Source: Gemmatimonadales bacterium (GTDB taxonomy: Bacteria; Gemmatimonadota; Gemmatimonadetes; Gemmatimonadales; GWC2-71-9). From it: 36,910 nucleotides of DNA. The notes below the pieces were generated by a model. It ran no database searches. It had not been told where the DNA came from and saw nothing but the letters and a program-made list of their open reading frames with translations. Positions 17,120 to 30,286 of this stretch are shown one piece after another. The DNA is taken from NCBI GenBank assembly GCA_025935995.1, contig JAICUF010000015.1, forward strand, positions 1 through 36,910. Reading direction: 5' to 3'. The translations under genes were made by a program, and so were the position numbers. Numbering within the stretch: position 1 is the stretch's first letter; each line of letters starts with the position of its first letter.

Positions 17120-17148
17120 TTGACACCGGCCGCCACCTGCTGAATATT
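17120..17148 (+). promoter_or_regulatory. candidate sigma-70-like promoter of blaI: TTGACA-17 bp-AATATT
   Basis: TTGACA at 17120-17125 and AATATT at 17143-17148. The -10 lies inside the first palindromic operator. Confidence 0.6.
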
Positions 17149-17153
17149 CAGCA
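17138..17153. promoter_or_regulatory. operator O1, perfect palindrome TGCTGAATATTCAGCA
   Basis: 16-bp perfect inverted repeat (TGCTGA-N4-TCAGCA) upstream of the BlaI-type gene. Confidence 0.75.
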
Positions 17154-17156
17154 CTG

Positions 17157-17172
17157 TGTTGATTTTTCAGCA
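17157..17172. promoter_or_regulatory. operator O2, imperfect palindrome TGTTGATTTTTCAGCA
   Basis: Same half-sites as O1 with one mismatch, centred 19 bp downstream of it and 21 bp before the blaI ATG. Confidence 0.65.
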
Positions 17173-17193
17173 TCCATCTCCACCGGATCCCCG

Positions 17194-17577
17194 ATGACGC
17201 CGAGCGCCCCCGTCGCGATGAGCCGCCGTGAGCGGCAGATCATGGACATCCTCTACCGTCGCGGCCGCGCCACCGCCGCCGAGGTGCTGAGCGATCTGCC
17301 CGATCCGCCGTCGTACTCCGCCGTCAGGGCCGCGCTCCGGCTCCTCGAGGACAAGGGGCGCGTCCGGCATCAGCAGGACGGCCAGCGCTACATCTACGCC
17401 CCCACCGTCCCGCGCGACCGCGCCCGCAATTCGGCGCTCACCCACCTCGTCCGAACCTTCTTCGGCGGCAGCGCCGAGCAGGTGGTGAACGCGCTGGTGG
17501 AAGAGGAGAAGCTGTCGCCCGCAGAGCTCGACCGGCTTGCCGGCCTCATCGAGCGGGCCCGCCAGGAGGGAACGTGA
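17194..17577 (+). CDS. BlaI/MecI/CopY family transcriptional repressor
   Basis: SRRERQIMDILYRRGRATAAEVLSDLPDPPSYSAVRAALRLLEDKGRVRHQQDGQRYIYAPTVPRDRARNSALTHLVRTFFGGSAEQVVNALVEEEKLSPAELDRLAGLIERARQ. The listed 871-aa ORF is over-extended. Confidence 0.92.
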   Translation: MTPSAPVAMSRRERQIMDILYRRGRATAAEVLSDLPDPPSYSAVRAALRLLEDKGRVRHQQDGQRYIYAPTVPRDRARNSALTHLVRTFFGGSAEQVVNALVEEEKLSPAELDRLAGLIERARQEGT

Positions 17578-19817
17578 CCACCGCGCTCATCGCCTGGACC
17601 CTCAAGGGGTCCCTCATCCTGCTCGTCGCCTTTGCCGTGACGCGCCTCATGCGTCATGCCTCCGCCGCCGCGCGCCACCTCGTGTGGACCCTGGCCCTCG
17701 CGGGCGTCCTGGCCCTGCCCCTCCTCGGCGCGATCCTCCCCGCCTGGCGGATCGACGGCCTCTCCCGGGTCGCGGCCCCCGCGGCACCGTCCGCCTCGCC
17801 CGCCCCGCCCGCCCTCGCCTTCGCCTTCAAGGCGATCGAGCGCACCGGCGACGTCGTCCCTGCCGGGTCCACGCGCTACGACATCGTCCCGGTACGGCCC
17901 GCGATCGACTGGATCCGCGTGCTGCCGCTCATCTGGATGGCGGGCGCCGCCCTCGTCCTCCTTCGCCTCCTGGCCGGCCTCGCCGGCGTGTGGTGGCTCG
18001 GCCGCCACGCACGCATGATGACCGACGCGCGCTGGCTCCATGCCGCGCACTCGATCGCGAGCCGGCTCGGTCTCGGTCGCGGCGTCACGCTCCTTCAGGG
18101 CGATCGCGGCACGGTGCCGATGACGTGGGGCGTGCTGCAGCCGGTGGTCTGGCTCCCGGCCGACGCGGATACGTGGGACGACGAGCGCCGGACGGTGGTG
18201 CTCGCGCACGAGCTGGCCCACGTGCGCCGGCGCGACGCGCTCACCCAGTGGATCGCGCACCTGGCACTCGCCGGCAACTGGTTCAACCCGCTCGCCTGGG
18301 TCGCCATGAAGCGCTTCCGCGACGAGCGCGAGCGCGCCTGCGACGACGCCGTCATCGGCCTGGGCACCCTGCCGAGCGCGTATGCGGATCACCTGCTCGA
18401 CATCGTGCGCACCCACGGCGCCGCCGGCGGCCCGATGCCCGCCATGGCGATGGCGCGCCGCTCCCAGTTCGAGGGCCGCCTCCTCGCCATCCTCGACGGC
18501 GGCTCCCCCCGCGGCGGCCTCCGCGCCCGCAGCGCGCTCTGGGTCGGCGCGCTTGCCGCCACCGCCCTCGTTCCCATCGCCGCCATCGGCGGCGCCGCGC
18601 CGCGCCCGGTCACAGCGGTCGCACCGGAGCAGTCCGCTCCGACGCCCTCGGCGGCAAACGCGAACGACTCCGCCAAGCCGCCCGCCCCGCCCGCCCGGTC
18701 CGCCTCGTCCGCCGCGGCCCCCAGGCCGCTCCTCACCGACTCCACCCTCCGCCGCGTCATCGCCGCCGCCGCCTCGATGACCGACGACGGCGAGCGCGCC
18801 GACGTCCTCCGCGCCGTCCTGCGCCATCCGAAGCTGGATCGCGCTGACGTGGCCGCGCTCCTCAAGGCCACCCGGTCGATGACCTCCGACGGCGATCGGG
18901 CCGACGTGCTCCGCGCCGCCATTCCCCGGGTGGCGTTCGACGACCCCGCCCAGCGGGCGGCCTTCTTCGACAGCGTCTCGCGGTTCGCCTCCGACGGCGA
19001 CCGGAAGGACGTCCTCGCCGCCGCCTTCGATGCGGCGCCGCTGAGCGACGCGCCCGTGCGCGCGGCGTTCGTCTCGGCCATCGCCCCCATCACGTCGGAT
19101 GGCGACAAGGCCGACCTGCTCGTGCATCTCCTCGGCCGCACCCGCCTCGAGCCCGCGGCGCTGGCGGATGTCATCCGGAGCACCCGCTCCATCGCGTCCG
19201 ACGGCGACAAGGCGCGCGTCCTCATGACGGCGATCGCGCATCAGCCGATCGACGACGACGCGCGCGCCGCCATCGTGACGGCGGCCCAGTCGATCGCGAG
19301 CGACGGCGACCGCGGCACCGTCCTCCGCGCCATCCTGCCCGGCGGGGCGAACACGGCCACGAGCGCGAGCAGCATCACGAGCTCCATGATGCCGGTCGCG
19401 GGCAGCGGCGCCCGCGAGCAGCACTCGCAGCCGACCGTCGCGACCACCGCGGAGACCCGCGTCATCAACGGCACCCGCCGCTGGACCACCGACCTCGAGC
19501 TGAACGGCACCCACGGCGGCAGCCCGAGCTACGAAGTCCGGATCACCGCCCGGAAGGCCCTCGTGGATGCCGGTGCGCGGCACCTGGTCGGGTTCGAGCC
19601 GGGCGGTTCGCTCGAAATCGAGCACACCGTGCATCCCGACCCCGAGAATCCGGGCGTCACCGTCACCACGGTGCGCACGGCGAAGATCCGTCCCGCCGGC
19701 GGCGGGCGGTTCACCTATGACTACCGGATCGACGGCGTGTCGCATGCGTGGGACGACGCCGCTCAGCAGTGGCTCGACATGGTGGTGGCGCGGTGGGCCG
19801 GCGGCCAGTTGAAGTAG
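17574..19817 (+). CDS. BlaR1-like M56 family membrane metallopeptidase with a C-terminal SDGD-repeat array and terminal beta-type module
   Basis: GTG start overlapping the blaI stop. M56 motif VVLAHELAHVRRRDALTQWIAHLALAGNWFNPLAW, several TM segments, then six (S/D)DG(D/E)(K/R) repeats of 34-35 aa. Confidence 0.9.
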   Translation: MTTALIAWTLKGSLILLVAFAVTRLMRHASAAARHLVWTLALAGVLALPLLGAILPAWRIDGLSRVAAPAAPSASPAPPALAFAFKAIERTGDVVPAGSTRYDIVPVRPAIDWIRVLPLIWMAGAALVLLRLLAGLAGVWWLGRHARMMTDARWLHAAHSIASRLGLGRGVTLLQGDRGTVPMTWGVLQPVVWLPADADTWDDERRTVVLAHELAHVRRRDALTQWIAHLALAGNWFNPLAWVAMKRFRDERERACDDAVIGLGTLPSAYADHLLDIVRTHGAAGGPMPAMAMARRSQFEGRLLAILDGGSPRGGLRARSALWVGALAATALVPIAAIGGAAPRPVTAVAPEQSAPTPSAANANDSAKPPAPPARSASSAAAPRPLLTDSTLRRVIAAAASMTDDGERADVLRAVLRHPKLDRADVAALLKATRSMTSDGDRADVLRAAIPRVAFDDPAQRAAFFDSVSRFASDGDRKDVLAAAFDAAPLSDAPVRAAFVSAIAPITSDGDKADLLVHLLGRTRLEPAALADVIRSTRSIASDGDKARVLMTAIAHQPIDDDARAAIVTAAQSIASDGDRGTVLRAILPGGANTATSASSITSSMMPVAGSGAREQHSQPTVATTAETRVINGTRRWTTDLELNGTHGGSPSYEVRITARKALVDAGARHLVGFEPGGSLEIEHTVHPDPENPGVTVTTVRTAKIRPAGGGRFTYDYRIDGVSHAWDDAAQQWLDMVVARWAGGQLK

Positions 19818-19874
19818 CCGCCGCCTGCCGGGAGGCGTTGACCGCTGCCGACGCGCTCTTCGTGTGCCCTGAAG

Positions 19875-19890
19875 TGCTGAAAAATCAGCA
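19875..19890. promoter_or_regulatory. operator O3, TGCTGAAAAATCAGCA
   Basis: Same TGCTGA-N4-TCAGCA half-sites as O1/O2, 22 bp upstream of the ATG at 19913. Confidence 0.65.
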
Positions 19891-19912
19891 TCTATTCCAG
19901 AAGGAGAACCCG

Positions 19913-21085
19913 ATGAAGCCCACGCTCTTTGCCGCCGCCCTCTTCGGCGCCGGCGCCGCCGCCGCCCAGCCCCTCGCCTGCCAGGGCGGCTCCGGGACGC
20001 AGATCAGCCGCGTCTCCGAATCCACCGACGGTGGCCGCCAGCACACCCACATGATCTGGTCCGACGGGAAGCGGAGCGTCTCCGTCCTCCTCGACGGCGC
20101 CGTCGAGTTCAGCGACGACGATCGCTCGGTGGCGTCGCTCGAGCCTGGGAGCTCGCTCATCGTGGACGAGCAGATGCGCGGCGAGCCCCTCCGTCACATC
20201 GAGTTCCGGGGTGAAGGCGGTGGCGTGAAGAGCACCTACACCGTGAACGGCGTACCGCGCGCCGACGACGACGCCGACCGGCAGAGCTGGCTCGCGCGCA
20301 TCCTGCCCGAGCTGATCCGCGAGCAGGGGCTCAACGCGGGCCCGCGGGCCGAGCGGATCCTCCGGAAGGAAGGGCCCGACGGGCTGCTCGCCGAGAGCCG
20401 CCGGATCCGGAGCGACGGAGTGAAGCGGGTCTATCTCTCCGTCCTCTTCGACAAGGCGCGGCTCACGCCCGCGCAGCACGTCGCCGCACTCCGCATCATC
20501 GAGCGCGAGATCAGCTCCGACGGCGACAAGGCGAGCCTCCTCCGGTCGCTGGCGGGCTCGCTCGACATCGCGGCTGCCCCGATCCGGGACGGCTATTTCG
20601 CTGCCGCGTCCTCCATCTCCTCCGACGGCGACCGCCGGCTGGTCCTCCTGGCCGCCCTCCCCCGCGCCCGCACCGACGCCGCCGCGCTGACCGCGCTCCT
20701 CGTGTCCGCCGCACCGATCAGCTCCGACGGCGACAAGTCGAACGTCCTCGTGCGCTCCGCCGATGCCCCCGCGCTCGACGCACCCTCGGCGCGCGATGCC
20801 TGGTTCCGGGCGGCGGGGAGCGTGTCGTCCGACGGCGACCGCGCGCGCGCCCTCCTGGCCGTGCTGTCGCGCGAGAGCGAGCGGAGCGACATCGCCGTCG
20901 CCGCGCTCGAGTCGGCGCGGCACATCTCGTCCGACGGCGACAAGACGCGCGTGCTGCTCGCGGTCTCGCCGGAGCGGATGCACGATGCGCAGGTGGCGGC
21001 GGCCTACGACGCCGCGCTCGACAGCATCTCGTCCGACGGCGACCATCGCCGCGCGGAGCAGCACGTGCGCTCGGCGCGCCCGTGA
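19913..21085 (+). CDS. secreted SDGD-repeat protein
   Basis: RBS aaggag, signal peptide MKPTLFAAALFGAGAAAAQP, and seven repeats: IRSDGVK, ISSDGDK, ISSDGDR, ISSDGDK, VSSDGDR, ISSDGDK, ISSDGDH. Confidence 0.85.
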   Translation: MKPTLFAAALFGAGAAAAQPLACQGGSGTQISRVSESTDGGRQHTHMIWSDGKRSVSVLLDGAVEFSDDDRSVASLEPGSSLIVDEQMRGEPLRHIEFRGEGGGVKSTYTVNGVPRADDDADRQSWLARILPELIREQGLNAGPRAERILRKEGPDGLLAESRRIRSDGVKRVYLSVLFDKARLTPAQHVAALRIIEREISSDGDKASLLRSLAGSLDIAAAPIRDGYFAAASSISSDGDRRLVLLAALPRARTDAAALTALLVSAAPISSDGDKSNVLVRSADAPALDAPSARDAWFRAAGSVSSDGDRARALLAVLSRESERSDIAVAALESARHISSDGDKTRVLLAVSPERMHDAQVAAAYDAALDSISSDGDHRRAEQHVRSARP

Positions 21086-23673
21086 TCGCGGCGTTCCTGT
21101 TCGTGCTGGCCGCCGCACAGCAGCAGCCGGCTCCGCCGCGAAGCATCGCGGCCGTGCGCGTGGATGCGGCGCCGGTGATCGACGGCCGGCTCGAGCCGAT
21201 CTGGTCGACCGCCCCCGCGGCCGCCGGCTTCACCCAGCGGCGGCCCGCCGAGGGCGCGCCGGCGGTGGACAGCACGGAGGTGCGCTTTCTCTATGACGGC
21301 GACGCGCTGTACATCGGCGCGCGCATGTACAGCCGGGATCCCGCGCACATCGAGGCCGCCGTCGCCCGGCGAGATAATACCACCGGGGCCGAGCAGCTCC
21401 GGGTCTCGCTCGATCCGTACCTCGACCGGCGGACGGCCTACACCTTCGGCGTCACCGCCGCGGGCACGCGCCTCGACTGGTATCACCCCGACGACGACGA
21501 GGACACGATCGACGCCTCGTTCGACCCCGTCTGGTCCGCCGCGGTGCACATCGACTCGCTGGGCTGGACGGCGGAGATGCGGATCCCCTTCTCCCAGCTC
21601 CGCTTCAGTCAGCGCGCCATCCAGCGCTGGGGGCTCAACCTGCGCCGCACCGTTCCCGCGCGGAAGGAGCAGGACTACTGGGTCAGGATCCCGCGCTCGG
21701 AGGCGGGCTGGGCCTCGAGGTTCGGCACCCTCACGGGGCTCGACGACGTGCACCCCGCCCGCCACATCGAGCTGCTCCCCTACGTCGCGAGCGACGCGAC
21801 GATGCGCGGCTCGCCCGACCTCGCGAATCCGTTCGATGCGCGCACGCAGGTCGGCGCCAGGGCGGGCGCTGACATGAAGATCGGGATCGGATCGTCCACC
21901 ACCATCGCGGTCACGGCGAATCCCGACTTCGGCCAGGTGGAAGCCGACCCGGCGGAAGTGAACCTGTCGGCGTTCGAGTCGTTCTTCGCCGAGCGCCGGC
22001 CCTTCTTCACCGAGAACCGCCAGCTGCTCGAGGGGAACGGGCCCGCCTACTTCTACTCCCGCCGGATCGGCGGCGCGCCCCGCGGCGAGCTGGCCGACGG
22101 CACCTACAACGACGTGCCCACGACGAGCTCCATCCTGGGCGCGGCCCGAGTCACCAGCCGGTTCGCTTCGGGCGCCACGCTCGGCGCGCTCGCGGCGGTC
22201 ACCGACGACGAGCACGTCCGCACCTTCGACCCTGTGTCGGGCACGTTCGGCACCAGGCCGGCGGCGCCGCTCACCGCCTACGGCGTGCTCCGCGCCCAGC
22301 AGGAAGTCGGCGCCGCGGGCTCCACGATCGGTGTCAGCGCCACCGGCGTCCGCCGCCGGCTCGCCGACGGCGATCCGCTGTCGCCCTACCTCAATCGCAA
22401 CGCCGTCGCCGGGGGGGCCGACTGGCTCCTGCGCTTCGGTCACGGGAACTACGAGCTGTCGGGCCACCTGGGCGGAAGCCGGGTCGAGGGCGACAGTACC
22501 GACATCGCGCGGGTGCAGCAGTCGAGCGCCCGCTACTACCAGCGGCCGGACGCGAACTACGTGGAGCTCGACCCGTCGCGCACCTCGCTCACCGGCTACG
22601 CGGCCGCGCTCACCCTCGCCAAGCGCGGCGGCAAGCACTGGCTGGGCCAGGTGTGGGGCGACGTGCGGAGCCCGGGCTTCGAGATCAACGATGCCGGCCG
22701 CCTGAGCCAGGCCGACCAGATCTACGGCGGCATCCTCGGCGCGTATCAGGAGACGGAGCCGAAGGGAATCTTCCGCGAGTACAGCCTCCAGGCGGAGGCC
22801 GACGCGGCGGTGAACTACGGTGGGGCGCGGACCTTCTCGTTCTACCGGACCGACGCGGCGATCACCTTCCGGAACTACTGGTGGACCAACCTCACGGCGT
22901 GGACGGACCTCCGCGGCCAGAGCGACAAGCTCACGCGCGGCGGCCCGCTGATGCAGACGCCGCGCGACGTCACCGGCATCGTCGAGGTCGGCAACAACCT
23001 GCTGGGCAAGGTGCGCGTGCGCGGCCGGGTCTACTACGGCGACTACGAGCGGGGCGCCTACATCTATCGCATCAGCGGCGGCGTGATCGTGCGGCCGGGG
23101 CCGCGCTGGGAGCTCTCCTTCCTCCCGAACTATCTCCGCGTGCGCGACAACCAGCAGTACGTGACGACGCTCGCCGGCGGCCCCGCCGCGACCTTCGGCA
23201 ACCGCTACGTCTTCGCGACCATCGAGCAGAGCACGATCCTGGCGGAGATCCGGGCCAGCTACGCCTTCACGCCGAACCTGACGCTGGAGCTGTACGCCGA
23301 GCCGTTCGCGTCGAGCGGCCGCTGGAGTGGATTCGGCGAGCTGGCGGCGCCCAGGACCCAGGAGATGCGCCGCTACGGCACCGACGGCACGACCATCGAG
23401 ACCGGCGCCGACGGAAGCCAGACGGTCACGGCCGACGGACAGACCTTCGATCTGCCGAACCGCGACTTCCTGGTGCGCTCGCTCCGGAGCAACGTCGTCC
23501 TCCGCTGGGAGTGGCGGCCGGGAAGCACGCTCTTCCTCGTCTGGCAGCAGGACCGGTTCGGAGACGAGGTGAGCCGGGCCCTCGCCGGCCCGCGCGACGT
23601 GCTCCACGCCTTCGGCACTACGGGGGACAACATCCTGCTCGTCAAGGCGAGCTATTGGCTGTCGGTGAAGTGA
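21082..23673 (+). CDS. DUF5916 family protein (N-terminal CBM9-like domain, C-terminal beta-barrel-like region)
   Basis: GTG start overlapping the previous stop. APVIDGRLEPIWSTAPAAAGFTQRRPAEGAPAVDSTEVRFLYDGDALYIGARMY...AEMRIPFSQLRF and NPDFGQVEADPAEVNLSAFESFFAERRPFFTEN. Confidence 0.92.
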   Translation: MIAAFLFVLAAAQQQPAPPRSIAAVRVDAAPVIDGRLEPIWSTAPAAAGFTQRRPAEGAPAVDSTEVRFLYDGDALYIGARMYSRDPAHIEAAVARRDNTTGAEQLRVSLDPYLDRRTAYTFGVTAAGTRLDWYHPDDDEDTIDASFDPVWSAAVHIDSLGWTAEMRIPFSQLRFSQRAIQRWGLNLRRTVPARKEQDYWVRIPRSEAGWASRFGTLTGLDDVHPARHIELLPYVASDATMRGSPDLANPFDARTQVGARAGADMKIGIGSSTTIAVTANPDFGQVEADPAEVNLSAFESFFAERRPFFTENRQLLEGNGPAYFYSRRIGGAPRGELADGTYNDVPTTSSILGAARVTSRFASGATLGALAAVTDDEHVRTFDPVSGTFGTRPAAPLTAYGVLRAQQEVGAAGSTIGVSATGVRRRLADGDPLSPYLNRNAVAGGADWLLRFGHGNYELSGHLGGSRVEGDSTDIARVQQSSARYYQRPDANYVELDPSRTSLTGYAAALTLAKRGGKHWLGQVWGDVRSPGFEINDAGRLSQADQIYGGILGAYQETEPKGIFREYSLQAEADAAVNYGGARTFSFYRTDAAITFRNYWWTNLTAWTDLRGQSDKLTRGGPLMQTPRDVTGIVEVGNNLLGKVRVRGRVYYGDYERGAYIYRISGGVIVRPGPRWELSFLPNYLRVRDNQQYVTTLAGGPAATFGNRYVFATIEQSTILAEIRASYAFTPNLTLELYAEPFASSGRWSGFGELAAPRTQEMRRYGTDGTTIETGADGSQTVTADGQTFDLPNRDFLVRSLRSNVVLRWEWRPGSTLFLVWQQDRFGDEVSRALAGPRDVLHAFGTTGDNILLVKASYWLSVK

Positions 23674-24925: not shown

Positions 24926-26464
24926 TCATCGCCGCGCCTTCCGGGGCATCCGCGCCTCGCTCTGGGCCGCGTGCCAGGCGTACGACGCCATGATCACCGC
25001 GTTCTTCATGAGGTCCTCGGGCTGGATCGTGTCGTAGAAATCCAGGTTGGTGTGGCCGCCGGTGCCGGGGACGTGGTCCTGCAGGAACTGGAATCCCGGC
25101 AGCCCCGCCGCGTCGAACGCGACGTGATCGGTGCTGCCCACGCTCTGGTTCGACACGACCGTCATCCCCATGTCGTGAAACGGCTCCATCCACGCCGTCA
25201 GCAATGAGCGCGCGGCCTCGTTGCCCTGCAGGTAGATCCCGCGGTACTGCCCCGGCCCATAGTCCTGATTGAAGTAGGCGAAGAGGCGGTCGTACTCGGG
25301 CTTCTTCGGCGCGGCGGTGTCGCCCGGCATGCCGAAGTGCTGCCGCACGTATGCCCGCGAACCCCAGAGCCCCTGCTCCTCCCCGCTCCAGAGCGCGATC
25401 CGGATGGTGCGCCGGGGCTTCGCGCCGACGGCCTTGAGGATCCGCATGGCCTCGAGCGCCACGGCGACGCCCGACGTGTTGTCGCTCGCGTTGGGGCTCG
25501 CGTGCCAGGTGTCGAAGTGCGCGCCGATCATCACGACCTCGTTCCTGAGATCGCTCCCCGGAATCTCGGCCGTGATGTTCATCGCCTGCTCCACCTGCTG
25601 GCCGATCCGGTTCCGCACCTCGAGCTCGACCTTCACCGGGATCCCCCGCTTGAGGATCCGGTACATCCGGTTGTAGTGCTCCGGCGTCACCGCGATCATC
25701 ACCGGCGCCGCTGAATCCCCCGCCGCCGACCAGTGGTCGGTCCGCGTACCCGGCCGCGAATAGCCGCGCACCGCGCCCAGCCAGCCGCTCTCGCTCTGCA
25801 GCACCGCCGCGACCCCTTCGCCCTTGAAGAAGGCGGCCTTCTCTTCGCTGGTGAGGAGATCGGGATTCCGCGGCGGGCGCGGCGGCGCGGGTCGGGCCGG
25901 CGCGATCACGGTGTGCTCCAGCGCCTCCAGCTGCTGGTCGGTGTAGCGGGGAACGCCGTTGGTGAGCGGCGCCAGATCGATCGTGGCGGGCGGCGTGCTG
26001 AGGACCGCCATGCCGCGCAGCTTCCCGCGCCACGCGTCGAGGTCCGGCCGCGTGGCCAGCTCCACGATCACCGCCTGCGCGACCTGCCTCCCATCGGTGC
26101 CCGGCGTGTGCGCGAGGGGATAGGCCACGAGCGGCGAGTAGTCGGGCTCCAGCATGTGCACCGAGACATATTCGTTGTCCCACGCCACGCCGAAGTCCAT
26201 GAACGGCTCCGCCGTCACGTTCGCGAGGCCCAGCTCGCGGAGCTCGCCCTGGACCCAGGTCTGCGCCCGCTGCATGTCGCGGGAGAGGGTGAGCCGCGCG
26301 CCGAGGACGTCGGTCATGTAGCTCTCGAAGTCCATCACGCGGGAGTGCTGGAGCCCCTCCTCCCGGATGCGCGCGACCATCGGCCAGTCGACGGGCACGG
26401 GGTCGGCAAAGGCGGCGGCGGCGAGCAGCAGGACCGCGCCAAGCGGCCTCAGGCGGCGGATCAT
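24926..26464 (-). CDS. secreted M28 family metallopeptidase
   Basis: MIRRLRPLGAVLLLAAAAFADP (signal), VVMIGAHFDTWHASPNASDNTSGVAVALEAMRIL, RIALWSGEEQGLWGSRAYV and a C-terminal H within GGHTNLDFYDTI. Confidence 0.92.
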   Translation of the reverse strand: MIRRLRPLGAVLLLAAAAFADPVPVDWPMVARIREEGLQHSRVMDFESYMTDVLGARLTLSRDMQRAQTWVQGELRELGLANVTAEPFMDFGVAWDNEYVSVHMLEPDYSPLVAYPLAHTPGTDGRQVAQAVIVELATRPDLDAWRGKLRGMAVLSTPPATIDLAPLTNGVPRYTDQQLEALEHTVIAPARPAPPRPPRNPDLLTSEEKAAFFKGEGVAAVLQSESGWLGAVRGYSRPGTRTDHWSAAGDSAAPVMIAVTPEHYNRMYRILKRGIPVKVELEVRNRIGQQVEQAMNITAEIPGSDLRNEVVMIGAHFDTWHASPNASDNTSGVAVALEAMRILKAVGAKPRRTIRIALWSGEEQGLWGSRAYVRQHFGMPGDTAAPKKPEYDRLFAYFNQDYGPGQYRGIYLQGNEAARSLLTAWMEPFHDMGMTVVSNQSVGSTDHVAFDAAGLPGFQFLQDHVPGTGGHTNLDFYDTIQPEDLMKNAVIMASYAWHAAQSEARMPRKARR

Positions 26465-26553
26465 CGGTTCCTCTCCGGTTGGATTGTCGTCGTCCGGCCG
26501 GCGTTTCCGATTGACTGGTAAGGCCCCCCTTACCACGGACCGGAGAACGCACC

Positions 26554-27063
26554 ATGTCACGACGCGCCGAAGCACTCGCCCAGCGGCTGGAACAGGGCGC
26601 CAGCGATCTCACCGCCCTGGCCGCCTCGCTCACCGACGACGAATGGGAGCTGCGGCTGCCCGGGGACGGGCGGACCGCCGGCGTCGTCGTCCACCACGTC
26701 GCCTCGATGTACCCGCTCGAGATCCAGCTCGCTCAGGGCCTCGCCGAGGGTCAACCCATCGCCGGGGTGAGCTGGGATGCGGTGCACGAGATCAACGCGA
26801 CCCACGCCCGCGAGTACGCCGACGTCACCCGCGAGGCGGCGATCGAGCTCGTGCGGCGGAACAGCGCGGCCGCGGCGACCGCGATCCGCGGGCTCAGCGA
26901 CGCGCAGCTCGATCAGGCGGCTCCGATCTCGCTCTACTCCGACACGACGCTTACCTGTCAGTTCTTCCTGGAGGATCACGCCGTGCGGCACAGCTATCAT
27001 CACGCGGCGGCGATCCGGCGGGCGGTGGCGGGAGCGCGCGCGCCGGAGGGCGCCGCGGCCTGA
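26554..27063 (+). CDS. DinB superfamily protein
   Basis: MSRRAEALAQRLEQGASDLTALAASLTDDEWELRLPGDGRTAGVVVHHVASMYPLEI...EDHAVRHSYHHAAAIRRA. Confidence 0.8.
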   Translation: MSRRAEALAQRLEQGASDLTALAASLTDDEWELRLPGDGRTAGVVVHHVASMYPLEIQLAQGLAEGQPIAGVSWDAVHEINATHAREYADVTREAAIELVRRNSAAAATAIRGLSDAQLDQAAPISLYSDTTLTCQFFLEDHAVRHSYHHAAAIRRAVAGARAPEGAAA

Positions 27064-27092: not shown

Positions 27093-29834
27093 CTAGCGGC
27101 CGAGCAGGTTCTCCGTCCAGACGACGCGCGACTCGGCCGCCTGGCCGGGGACCTGGCGTGCGGCGAGGAAAATGAAGTGGCCGTCGGCGGTCGTCTCGTA
27201 CGACTGGTGAAAGCCGTCGGGACGGAAGCCGGTCGCGTCGAACAGGTGCTCGATCCGCTCCACCGCGAGCCCGCCTGCCGTCGTCACCCGCGCCGCGTTC
27301 ATGTGCTTGCTCGCATCCAGGAAGAACAGGGTCTTCCCGTCGCGGGACCAGCGCGGCTCCGAGCCCCCGTTCACGGAGATCGAGATCCGGGCCGACTGGG
27401 TGGCGGGGAACGGCCGCACGTAGACCTCGAGTGTCCCCGACTCGTTCGAGGCGTAGGCCAGCCACTTTCCGTCGGGGGACACCGACGGCGAGAGGTCGAG
27501 GAAAGGGCTCGTCACCAGCGGCACCGGCGCCGGCTCGCTCCCGCCACCCGCCGCGCCATCCAGCGGCACGCCGAGCAGGTCGCCGGCGCCGGGGCTGCCG
27601 GAGTCGGTCCGGAGGATGAGCAACTTGCCGTCGGCCGACCACTCGATCTCCTGCGGCTGGTAGGGAAGCCGCGCCAGCACCCGCTCGGCGCTGCTGCCGT
27701 CGGCGGCGCGGGCCATCACGATGCTCGTGCTGCCGGTGTCGCGGAGAAAGGCGACGGTGCGCCCGTCCGGCGACCACGAGGGTCGGCGGTCGCGCCCGCC
27801 GAAGCTCAGCCGGGTGACGGGGCCCTTGTCGAGCTGCTTGATCCAGATGTTGAGATCGCCGTTGGTGGTGCCGGTGCCGACCGCCATCCGGCGGCCGTCG
27901 GGGGAGAGGTCGAAGGAATTGATGGCGCCGAACCAGTCGGGATCGATCGGGTCGAATTTCCCGTCGGCGGAGACGCGCACGACGACGTTCTGGCCGATGT
28001 TGCCGCTGCCGCGGATGTAGACCACCGTCCCGAGCGGCGAGACCGCGAGGTGGGCAAAGCCCAGGCCGATCTGCACGCCGTCGAACACCGGCGTCCCCTG
28101 CCCCTTCACCTCGAGCTTCTCGAGATCGAAGGCGGCCACGAGCGCCGTGCCGTCGCGGCGCACGTACAGCATCCGGCCGTGGCCCAGGTACACCGCCTGC
28201 GCCGCGTCGGGAAGGAGCATCTTCTGCCGGCCGGTTTTCAGGTCGAGCACGCGGATGCCCATGGTCACACAGCCCGAGGTGCAGCCCTGGAAGAGGACGC
28301 CGCGCGAACCCGGCAGCGCCACCGGCATGCCGAGCCCGACACTGCTCAGCGTGCTGTCGCGAAGCGCGCGGGTGACCGGCCCGCCGCTCGCGGCGACGCG
28401 CCGGAGCTCGTCGATCTGGGGCGGCACGAAGACGATCGTCCCGTCGTCGAGCCAGGTCGCTCCGCCGAATCCCGACGCCGCCGCCGAGTCGGCCACGATG
28501 GAGACGAGGCCGCCGGCGGCGCCCACCTTCTTGAGCCGGCCGTCCGCCACGAAGACGATCCACTGTCCGTCGGGTGAGAAGGCAGGATTGGTCGCGCGCT
28601 CGGTGCCGGCCAGTGCGACCGGCTGGAGCGCGTCGCGCCGCTTGAGCCAGAGCCCGCCGCCCGGTCGCACGTCCCGGAAGGCCAGCGTGCTGCCGTCGGG
28701 GGAGAGTGCGAGGGAGGGCGCGGCGGTGCTCGGCGCCGTGCTGTCGCCGAGCAGGACGTAGTTGTTGGAGACGGCGGCGGCGGGCGCCGTCGGCCGGGTC
28801 AGTGCCCAGCCGGCGATGGCCGCCGCCGCGAGGGCGGCCACGCCGGCAGCGATCGCGGCGAGGCGCCATCGGCCGTCCCGCGCCGCGGCCGGTGCGACCC
28901 TCACGGTGGAGGTCGCCGTCATGCCGACCGGTGTAACCCAGGTTTCCCCCGCCCCGGTCCCCCGGCCGCCGGTGAATGCCTCGGCGAAGGCGGCGGCGGT
29001 GGGAAAGCGGTCGGCCGGCAGCTTCTCCAGGGCGGTGAGCACCGCGGCCTCCATCGCGGGGGGCACGTTCTTCCGCTGGAGGGTGATGCGCCGCGGCTCC
29101 TCGGTCAGCACGCGGGCGACGATCGCCTGCGCGCTGCTCCCGGTGAAGGGCGGCTCGCCGGTGAGCATCTCGTAGGTGATGCAGCCCAGGGCATACACGT
29201 CGCTCCGCGCCGTGATCTCCCGCTCGCCCATCGCCTGCTCGGGACTCATGTAGTGCGGCGTGCCGAGCGACAGGCCCGTTTCGGTGAGGCGGCTGCCGCT
29301 CGCCTTGCTCGCGGCGAGCGCGATGCCGAAGTCGGCCACCAGCGCCTGGCCCTCGTGGAGGAGAATGTTCTCGGGCTTGATGTCGCGGTGGATCACGCCG
29401 TGGCGATGGGCGTAGTCGAGTGCCGAGGCGACGGCGACGGCGATCCGCACGGCGTCGCCGATGGGAAGCTGCTTCTCGCGATTGAGCCGGTCGCGCAGCG
29501 TCTCGCCCGGCACGTAGGGCATGACGTAGAAGAGCCAGGGGCCGGCGTTGCCCGAGTCGTGGAGCGGGAGGATGTGCGGATGCTGGAGACGCGCGGTCGT
29601 CCGGATCTCGGTGAGGAACCGCTCGGCGCCGAGCATGGCGGCGAGCTCGGGGCGGAGTACCTTCACCGCGACGTCCCGCTCGTGGCGCAGGTCCTGGGCG
29701 AGGTAGACGGTCGCCATGCCCCCCTGCCCCAGCTCGCGCTGGAGGTGGTAGCGATCGGAGATGGCGGCGGCGAGGGTGTCGGGGAGCACGAGGGATGATA
29801 CGGGGAAAGGGCGGAGGGACGGAAGGGCGCACAT
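27093..29834 (-). CDS. Ser/Thr protein kinase with C-terminal TolB/PD40-like propeller
   Basis: RYHLQRELGQGGMATVYLAQDLRH, HRDIKPENILLHEGQALVADFGIAL, TM segment, then repeated FSPDGQWIVFVADG / SWSPDGRTVAFLRD blades. The GTG at 29789 (VLPDTLAAAISDRYHL) may be the true start. Confidence 0.92.
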   Translation of the reverse strand: MCALPSLRPFPVSSLVLPDTLAAAISDRYHLQRELGQGGMATVYLAQDLRHERDVAVKVLRPELAAMLGAERFLTEIRTTARLQHPHILPLHDSGNAGPWLFYVMPYVPGETLRDRLNREKQLPIGDAVRIAVAVASALDYAHRHGVIHRDIKPENILLHEGQALVADFGIALAASKASGSRLTETGLSLGTPHYMSPEQAMGEREITARSDVYALGCITYEMLTGEPPFTGSSAQAIVARVLTEEPRRITLQRKNVPPAMEAAVLTALEKLPADRFPTAAAFAEAFTGGRGTGAGETWVTPVGMTATSTVRVAPAAARDGRWRLAAIAAGVAALAAAAIAGWALTRPTAPAAAVSNNYVLLGDSTAPSTAAPSLALSPDGSTLAFRDVRPGGGLWLKRRDALQPVALAGTERATNPAFSPDGQWIVFVADGRLKKVGAAGGLVSIVADSAAASGFGGATWLDDGTIVFVPPQIDELRRVAASGGPVTRALRDSTLSSVGLGMPVALPGSRGVLFQGCTSGCVTMGIRVLDLKTGRQKMLLPDAAQAVYLGHGRMLYVRRDGTALVAAFDLEKLEVKGQGTPVFDGVQIGLGFAHLAVSPLGTVVYIRGSGNIGQNVVVRVSADGKFDPIDPDWFGAINSFDLSPDGRRMAVGTGTTNGDLNIWIKQLDKGPVTRLSFGGRDRRPSWSPDGRTVAFLRDTGSTSIVMARAADGSSAERVLARLPYQPQEIEWSADGKLLILRTDSGSPGAGDLLGVPLDGAAGGGSEPAPVPLVTSPFLDLSPSVSPDGKWLAYASNESGTLEVYVRPFPATQSARISISVNGGSEPRWSRDGKTLFFLDASKHMNAARVTTAGGLAVERIEHLFDATGFRPDGFHQSYETTADGHFIFLAARQVPGQAAESRVVWTENLLGR

Positions 29835-29923
29835 TTCGCCGCCGGGGGACGCCGGGAGGACGGGCGGGCCGCATCCTGGCTCCGCACGGTGACGGCAGTA
29901 TCCACTCTGTTCATGGAGGCTGC

Positions 29924-30286
29924 ATGCCGGACTCACGAATGCGAATCTCACGCCATCTGATGCTCGCCCTCACGACCATCCAGCTCGCCGGCTGCACCCA
30001 TTGGGGCCAGCCGCTCGCCAGCCTGCCGGAGCCGAACGGGGGCGCCGTGCGCGTCTGGCAGGGCCGAACGCCGACTGTGCTCGGGAGTGCGACCTTCACG
30101 CCCGACTCGCTGATCGGCACCCATGGGCCCGGGAAGACACGGCTCGCCTTCGCGCGGGGAGAGATCGACTCGCTCAACGTGAGGCGCACCAACGTCGTCG
30201 GCACCGTCATCCTGCTCGCCGTCGGCGTCGGTCTGGTGAAGCTCATCGCCTTCGCCATCGACTTCAGCTCGTACGCCAACAACTGA
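29924..30286 (+). CDS. small lipoprotein, unknown function
   Basis: MPDSRMRISRHLMLALTTIQLAGCTHWGQ (lipobox LAGC) with a C-terminal TM-like VVGTVILLAVGVGLVKLIAFAI. Confidence 0.6.
   Translation: MPDSRMRISRHLMLALTTIQLAGCTHWGQPLASLPEPNGGAVRVWQGRTPTVLGSATFTPDSLIGTHGPGKTRLAFARGEIDSLNVRRTNVVGTVILLAVGVGLVKLIAFAIDFSSYANN

Follow-up and report, generated by a model that had tools for sequence, protein, structure and literature searches.

The question raised by the stretch of DNA analyzed here (the window, i.e., 36,910 nucleotides (nt) of contig JAICUF010000015.1 from the Gemmatimonadota assembly of a soil-type bacterium) is what a BlaI/M56-type pair of repressor and membrane protease responds to when it carries no penicillin sensor, and why a soluble relative of its ectodomain should be encoded beside it. 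Family searches of the window proteins located four genes in the order given by an initial annotation of this DNA, namely blaI, an M56 protease gene, a gene for a secreted SDGD-repeat protein and a DUF5916 gene, all on the forward (+) strand, and supported its view of a BlaI/M56 signalling unit without a penicillin sensor. Gene content and order, domain homology, operators over promoters and recurrence, all established at the level of sequence, mark the locus as a real and recurrent BlaI/M56-type regulatory unit with a non-penicillin sensor and, by its operator, a regulon-encoded soluble copy of that sensor. Beyond the earlier reading, the analysis adds a second shared, beta-rich domain, operators, two architectures and the variability of the repeat motif. 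BlaI/M56 pairs have been studied almost only as beta-lactam sensors, yet M56 proteins lacking that sensor occur commonly in these genomes; the locus represents a concrete class of solenoid sensors with a soluble ectodomain copy in the regulon and an operator that is readable from sequence. No description of such a sensor-plus-secreted-copy layout was found among the papers searched.

The first gene, blaI (17194-17577, with an alternative ATG start at 17218), encodes a 127-residue repressor that is a BlaI/MecI family member: it matches Pfam PF03965 (Penicillinase_R; E=3e-28, over the cut-off) and the MecI structures 1sd6 and 1okr (E=3e-4 to 5e-4), and it possesses the dyad operator at its own promoter that is a trait of the family, as O1 and O2 (described below) lie over the -10 box. 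The BlaR1-BlaI system of Staphylococcus aureus (PDB 8EXP-8EXT; PMC9834060) likewise comprises an autoregulated BlaI-family repressor. The M56 gene (17574-19817), which overlaps blaI by 4 nt, encodes a gluzincin membrane protease of 747 residues with a solenoid ectodomain (Pfam PF05569, Peptidase_M56; E=1e-32). Motif reading located the zinc-binding HELAH (residues 212-216; 18207-18221) and the ERACDD with the third zinc ligand (residues 253-258; 18330-18347), and HExxH is kept in all 62 full-length M56 domains from related loci. The AlphaFold2 model of the protease is of moderate quality overall (predicted local distance difference test (pLDDT) score 66; 79-95 for solenoid residues 391-580), places predicted membrane helices at residues 2-25, 31-54, 113-144 and 319-336, and has the S. 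aureus BlaR1 structures 8ext, 8exs and 8exr as its top Foldseek matches (E=5e-5 to 3e-4). BlaR1 possesses the same M56 HExxH...E protease, four membrane helices and a C-terminal extracytoplasmic sensor; however, that sensor is a penicillin-binding domain and its output is beta-lactamase or PBP2a, whereas the window sensor is a solenoid plus a beta domain and the operator-linked genes encode the secreted sensor paralogue and the DUF5916 protein. The M56 protein was not filed as BlaR1 because neither a penicillin-binding domain nor a beta-lactamase output was found: Pfam returned no transpeptidase or penicillin-binding domain match in the ectodomain, and the NCBIfam model blaR1_generic spans only residues 108-261 with a score of 78 vs a cut-off of 400.

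The ectodomain contains an alpha-solenoid of six SDGD repeats (residues 389-596; 18738-19361), found by repeat search and helical in the AlphaFold2 model, with the motifs TDDGER, TSDGDR, ASDGDR, TSDGDK, ASDGDK and ASDGDR. The secreted SDGD-repeat protein, P0003 (390 residues; 19913-21085), exhibits a signal-peptide-like N-terminus, a beta domain (residues 30-116) and an alpha-solenoid (residues 121-386) whose repeats are SDGVKR plus six SDGD[KRH], so that the counts of six and seven given earlier are confirmed. The repeat had also been proposed to be common to sensor and secreted protein, and the two regions are indeed homologous (E=1.9e-16 and 1.5e-8). As for the motif, the repeat itself stands, while SDGD does not define it, being one version of a variable S-[D/S]-X-[D/E]; judging from the aligned relatives, in which SDHE, SDYE, SDVE, SDTE, SSSS and other versions occur, this variable motif is the defining feature, with X set per protein. 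The AlphaFold2 model of P0003, built from seven sequences (pLDDT 87.6; predicted template modelling score 0.80), displays a beta domain of nine strands and an alpha-solenoid; in every repeat of the latter, the conserved Ser serves as N-cap to the first helix. The statement that the repeat protein belongs to no named family held up, in that P0003 returned no match in Pfam (none up to E=1) or NCBIfam, no PDB sequence match and no PDB fold match at E<=1e-3. HEAT repeats (Pfam PF13646) likewise form an alpha-solenoid and are employed in a parallel version of the system (see below), but the SDGD repeats differ from them, since HEAT/HEAT_2, ARM and TPR models gave no significant match and P0003 with 15 aligned relatives returned no HEAT. 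A hint of DUF4476 (E=0.053) was seen in a single relative.

The second domain common to both proteins is the beta-rich domain, which in the M56 protein is C-terminal (19437-19802; strands at residues 622-719 in the model) and matches the secreted-protein beta-domain profile at 1e-5. In the window the sensor has the order repeats-beta and the secreted protein the order beta-repeats, the latter of which also occurs within the sensor itself in many relatives. A tree of 78 beta domains, weak and based on few columns, clusters most separate proteins with sensors of the beta-repeat order, and by the same weak tree at least one locus (L040) looks like an independent duplication. The beta domain is a wider M56 ectodomain module than the SDGD repeats. 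Loci L103-L120 encode an M56 protein with the beta domain and no SDGD repeats adjoining blaI, and some of these proteins end in coiled-coil-like stretches.

A dyad scan for the pattern GCTGAWWWWTCAGC, with up to two mismatches, yielded three sites in the window vs 0.15 expected, two before blaI and one before the secreted gene; the entire 2.86 Mb assembly holds five such sites, the remaining two both being located on contig C134. Operator O1 (17139-17152), the perfect dyad GCTGAATATTCAGC, contains the -10 box of a sigma-70-type promoter of blaI-M56 (17120-17148; -35 TTGACA at 17120-17125, a 17-nt spacer and -10 AATATT at 17143-17148; 10/12 matches, 0 in shuffles) and starts exactly 13 nt after TTGACA. 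O2 (17158-17171; GTTGATTTTTCAGC, one mismatch) lies 19 nt past O1, while O3 (19876-19889), the perfect dyad GCTGAAAAATCAGC, is positioned 23 nt upstream of the SDGD start codon. The TTGAC-to-dyad spacing recurs at all 16 blaI promoters examined (13 nt in 13 of them, 14-15 nt in the other three), and the composite TTGAC-N14-GYTGAWWWWTCARC was found at six places in 101 whole genomes, each of them the blaI promoter of an M56-solenoid locus. Paired dyads at blaI are also present in loci L144, L147 and L150-L153, and have been reported at the autoregulated BlaI promoter of Clostridium thermocellum (PMC8457756). That known small BlaI regulon shares the two inverted-repeat pairs with the present system, but its half-sites are GTCTAT/GACTAT rather than TGCTGA and no sensor-ectodomain paralogue has been reported in it, whereas one is present here.

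Sites equivalent to O3 precede secreted genes at many loci, and the closest relative of the window locus, L077, has an identical site at the equivalent position. Furthermore, the operator type co-varies, since L040 and L041 have a GCTA-type operator both at blaI and before the secreted gene. This common operator argues strongly for membership of the secreted gene in the BlaI regulon, and the position, symmetry and conservation of the putative operators suggest that they are bound by BlaI. In L144, L147 and L152, the interval from the M56 gene to the secreted-gene operator contains hairpins with T-rich stretches similar to intrinsic terminators, which suggests separate transcription. Further operator sites in relatives precede genes for secreted S15-like (E=6.5e-48) and S41-like (E=4.5e-12) peptidases and an M1-like gene (E=1.4e-5, just below cut-off); these are possible extra outputs of the systems, and the three sites hint at a peptide ligand. 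In loci L161, L163, L167 and L173, BlaI-type operators were seen before such M1-like, S15 and S41 peptidase-like genes and a small membrane protein.

Among 295 genomes of the class, 36 contain relatives of P0003, representing 23 of 121 genera. The recurrent linkage of SDGD proteins to blaI-M56, on which the initial annotation had staked its proposal beforehand, was borne out by the neighbourhood survey: nearly every examined locus not cut by a contig end contains blaI and M56, the exceptions being L080 (Verrucomicrobiota), L115 and L118. The closest relative (L077; 79% identity, Gemmatimonadales) retains the exact order of M56 end, operator, SDGD and DUF5916. Members from Acidobacteriota (L078 and L079) were also identified, and the cross-phylum spread is a minimum, as alignment A1 was too divergent for the collection scan and the narrower alignment A2 was used. 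Two arrangements stand apart: in L039 (7538-10021), M56 and DUF5916 flank a tandem pair of secreted SDGD proteins, only the second of which has the operator, and L080 (7848-9152) encodes a free SDGD protein on a Verrucomicrobiota contig, surrounded by MacB/FtsX-like (ABC) permease genes and with no blaI or M56 nearby.

A parallel version of the unit employs HEAT repeats. On contig C134 (L038, G000:C134; 4319 bases) of the same assembly, BlaI and a HEAT-repeat M56 protein are followed by an operator and a secreted HEAT protein, and the order M56-HEAT, operator, secreted HEAT protein was observed in at least 10 genomes, where dyads occur at blaI as well as ahead of the secreted HEAT gene. Over 2,027 bases, C134 shares 99.95% identity with L154 (G110:C231) from another genus of the same family, and it may be a mis-binned contig in one of the two assemblies; it is thus not firm evidence on this organism, while the recurrence in other genomes stands. 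That the same circuit exists with either repeat fold (SDGD or HEAT) suggests that the soluble copy is relevant to the working of these sensors. A third BlaI and M56-HEAT locus in this assembly, followed by a HEAT protein (L143:5455-9549; G000:C153), is without a GCTGA-type operator. No paper on M56 with HEAT was found in the open literature searched, a search that left most subscription journals outside.

It has previously been demonstrated that BlaR1, once a ligand occupies its ectodomain, cleaves BlaI through its activated cytoplasmic zinc site (PMC9834060). By analogy, BlaI dimers would occupy the pair of dyads over the -10 box at the blaI-M56 promoter as well as the single dyad before the secreted gene. 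Binding of an extracytoplasmic ligand to the M56 ectodomain would then switch on the zinc protease in the cytoplasm, whose cleavage of BlaI would free transcription of both the sensor operon and the SDGD-DUF5916 operon. The secreted SDGD protein, as a soluble paralogue of the sensor ectodomain, would in turn bind the same ligand class in the periplasm, probably a peptide or protein, as is usual for alpha-solenoids; it would capture ligand and exert feedback on the sensor, and the ligand would be dealt with by the DUF5916 envelope protein made alongside it. This full reading, i.e., a BlaI/M56 circuit whose solenoid senses an extracytoplasmic ligand and whose active state produces a soluble copy of the sensor, is given a probability of roughly 0.6, and is favoured because of the BlaI/MecI and BlaR1 family and structure matches, the active-site motifs, the operators, the linkage, the HEAT parallel and the peptidase-linked sites. 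Its parts differ in strength: that the unit is a regulatory circuit is very probable, while a soluble ligand binder with feedback is a tentative, slightly less than even assignment for the secreted protein, whose decoy, adaptor and substrate roles would look alike in sequence.

Several points weigh against this reading. The proteolytic relay is carried over by analogy, and the ligand, its binding, its capture and the feedback are steps that we infer. At the position of the S. aureus scissile bond, Asn101-Phe102 (PMC9834060), the window BlaI aligns with Ala-Leu, so that the hydrophobic P1' residue is kept but the Phe found in S. aureus is absent. Ahead of the secreted-gene operator, a -35 comparison found no TTGACA at the usual spacing, and neither this comparison nor a promoter scan returned a sigma-70 promoter there. 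Finally, about half of the SDGD sensors are without a separate secreted protein, and the soluble copy is therefore not essential to signalling.

The rival that survives best, although itself somewhat improbable, is envelope surveillance, in which the DUF5916 envelope protein would have the soluble solenoid as its partner or chaperone in the periplasm, and the sensor would gauge the free amount of this solenoid. CpxP, a regulon-encoded periplasmic protein that feeds back on the membrane sensor CpxA, offers a precedent for such gauging as well as for the feedback assumed in the preferred reading; CpxA, however, is a histidine kinase rather than a protease, and its ectodomain is not duplicated in CpxP. 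The DUF5916 gene (863 residues; 21082-23673; Pfam PF19313, E=2e-47, 162.7 bits vs a cut-off of 22.6) overlaps the SDGD gene, as earlier claimed, by 4 nt (GTGA, 21082-21085). DUF5916 is the next gene in 19 of the 34 SDGD loci with room and occurs in 0 of 20 beta-only or repeat-fragment loci, and the next structural match after BlaR1, a weak one, is BepA, a protease of the periplasm that carries a helical-repeat domain and looks after outer-membrane proteins. On the other hand, 15 of those 34 loci are without DUF5916, and none was noted beside the HEAT version, where no systematic search was made.

A direct contact, in which sensor and secreted protein bind each other via matching repeats with the latter as ligand or inhibitory partner, is unlikely. 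The two proteins do have two domains in common, and X agrees between a sensor and its own partner more than between shuffled partners (0.35 vs 0.20; p=0.02 at position 21, with p=0.0004 at position 25), but this test is not corrected for relatedness, the domain order is permuted between the two window proteins, and six of 12 sensor-partner pairs share no or almost no X (G vs H, T vs V, L vs M). Such weak matching speaks rather for tuning within each solenoid than for a homotypic interface common to both, and the homotypic binding put forward by the initial annotation is not supported in the form stated. An ordinary BlaI/BlaR1 beta-lactam resistance locus, to which the family membership of both proteins would point, is highly improbable given an ectodomain without a penicillin-binding domain, for which a beta-lactam sensor was rejected, and an operon without a beta-lactamase or penicillin-binding protein match.

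The residue X of S-D-X-D/E is nearly uniform along each protein but varies from protein to protein. Among 301 repeat units from 52 proteins, X identity was 0.77 within a protein vs 0.18 between proteins (z=43 vs label shuffles, which ignore phylogeny; the presence of relatives among the between-protein comparisons works against the effect). A similar pattern holds at positions -1, +3 and +6 relative to the Ser (z 21-26), and in L062 vs L065, which are 79% identical, X has changed in all listed repeats together. Coordination of this kind is seldom seen in natural repeat proteins and points to a binding or packing rule. One speculative and rather doubtful proposal is that the N-cap-turn strip (-1, +2, +3 and +6 from the conserved Ser) forms a per-protein code, with one residue type along the solenoid, switched together, that would read a periodic ligand or set the self or partner specificity of sensor and secreted copy. 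Tandem repeats commonly homogenise, and uniform X could reflect short-tract gene conversion or recent repeat duplication rather than function; this is very unlikely, however, given the joint change in L062/L065 and the lack of any within-protein excess at unit positions 3-13. Synonymous codons at neighbouring conserved residues reach z of only about 1-4, like residues outside the motif, and since they are not homogenised to match, protein-level selection is likelier than DNA conversion, which this test leaves unsupported as the cause. In L045 (8948-11845), X alternates between His and Tyr/Phe over ten repeats, as if the unit were a repeat pair.

Regarding the remaining genes, the DUF5916 protein is weakly CBM9-like at its N-terminus (CBM9_1, E=0.0058, below cut-off), and the family is represented by only five matches in the own assembly; no paper on it was found in the open literature covered. 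Downstream on the reverse (-) strand, two neighbouring genes were classified by eye from their sequences: that at 24926-26575 looks like an M28-type secreted peptidase, and that at 27093-29951 like a Ser/Thr kinase with a beta-propeller.

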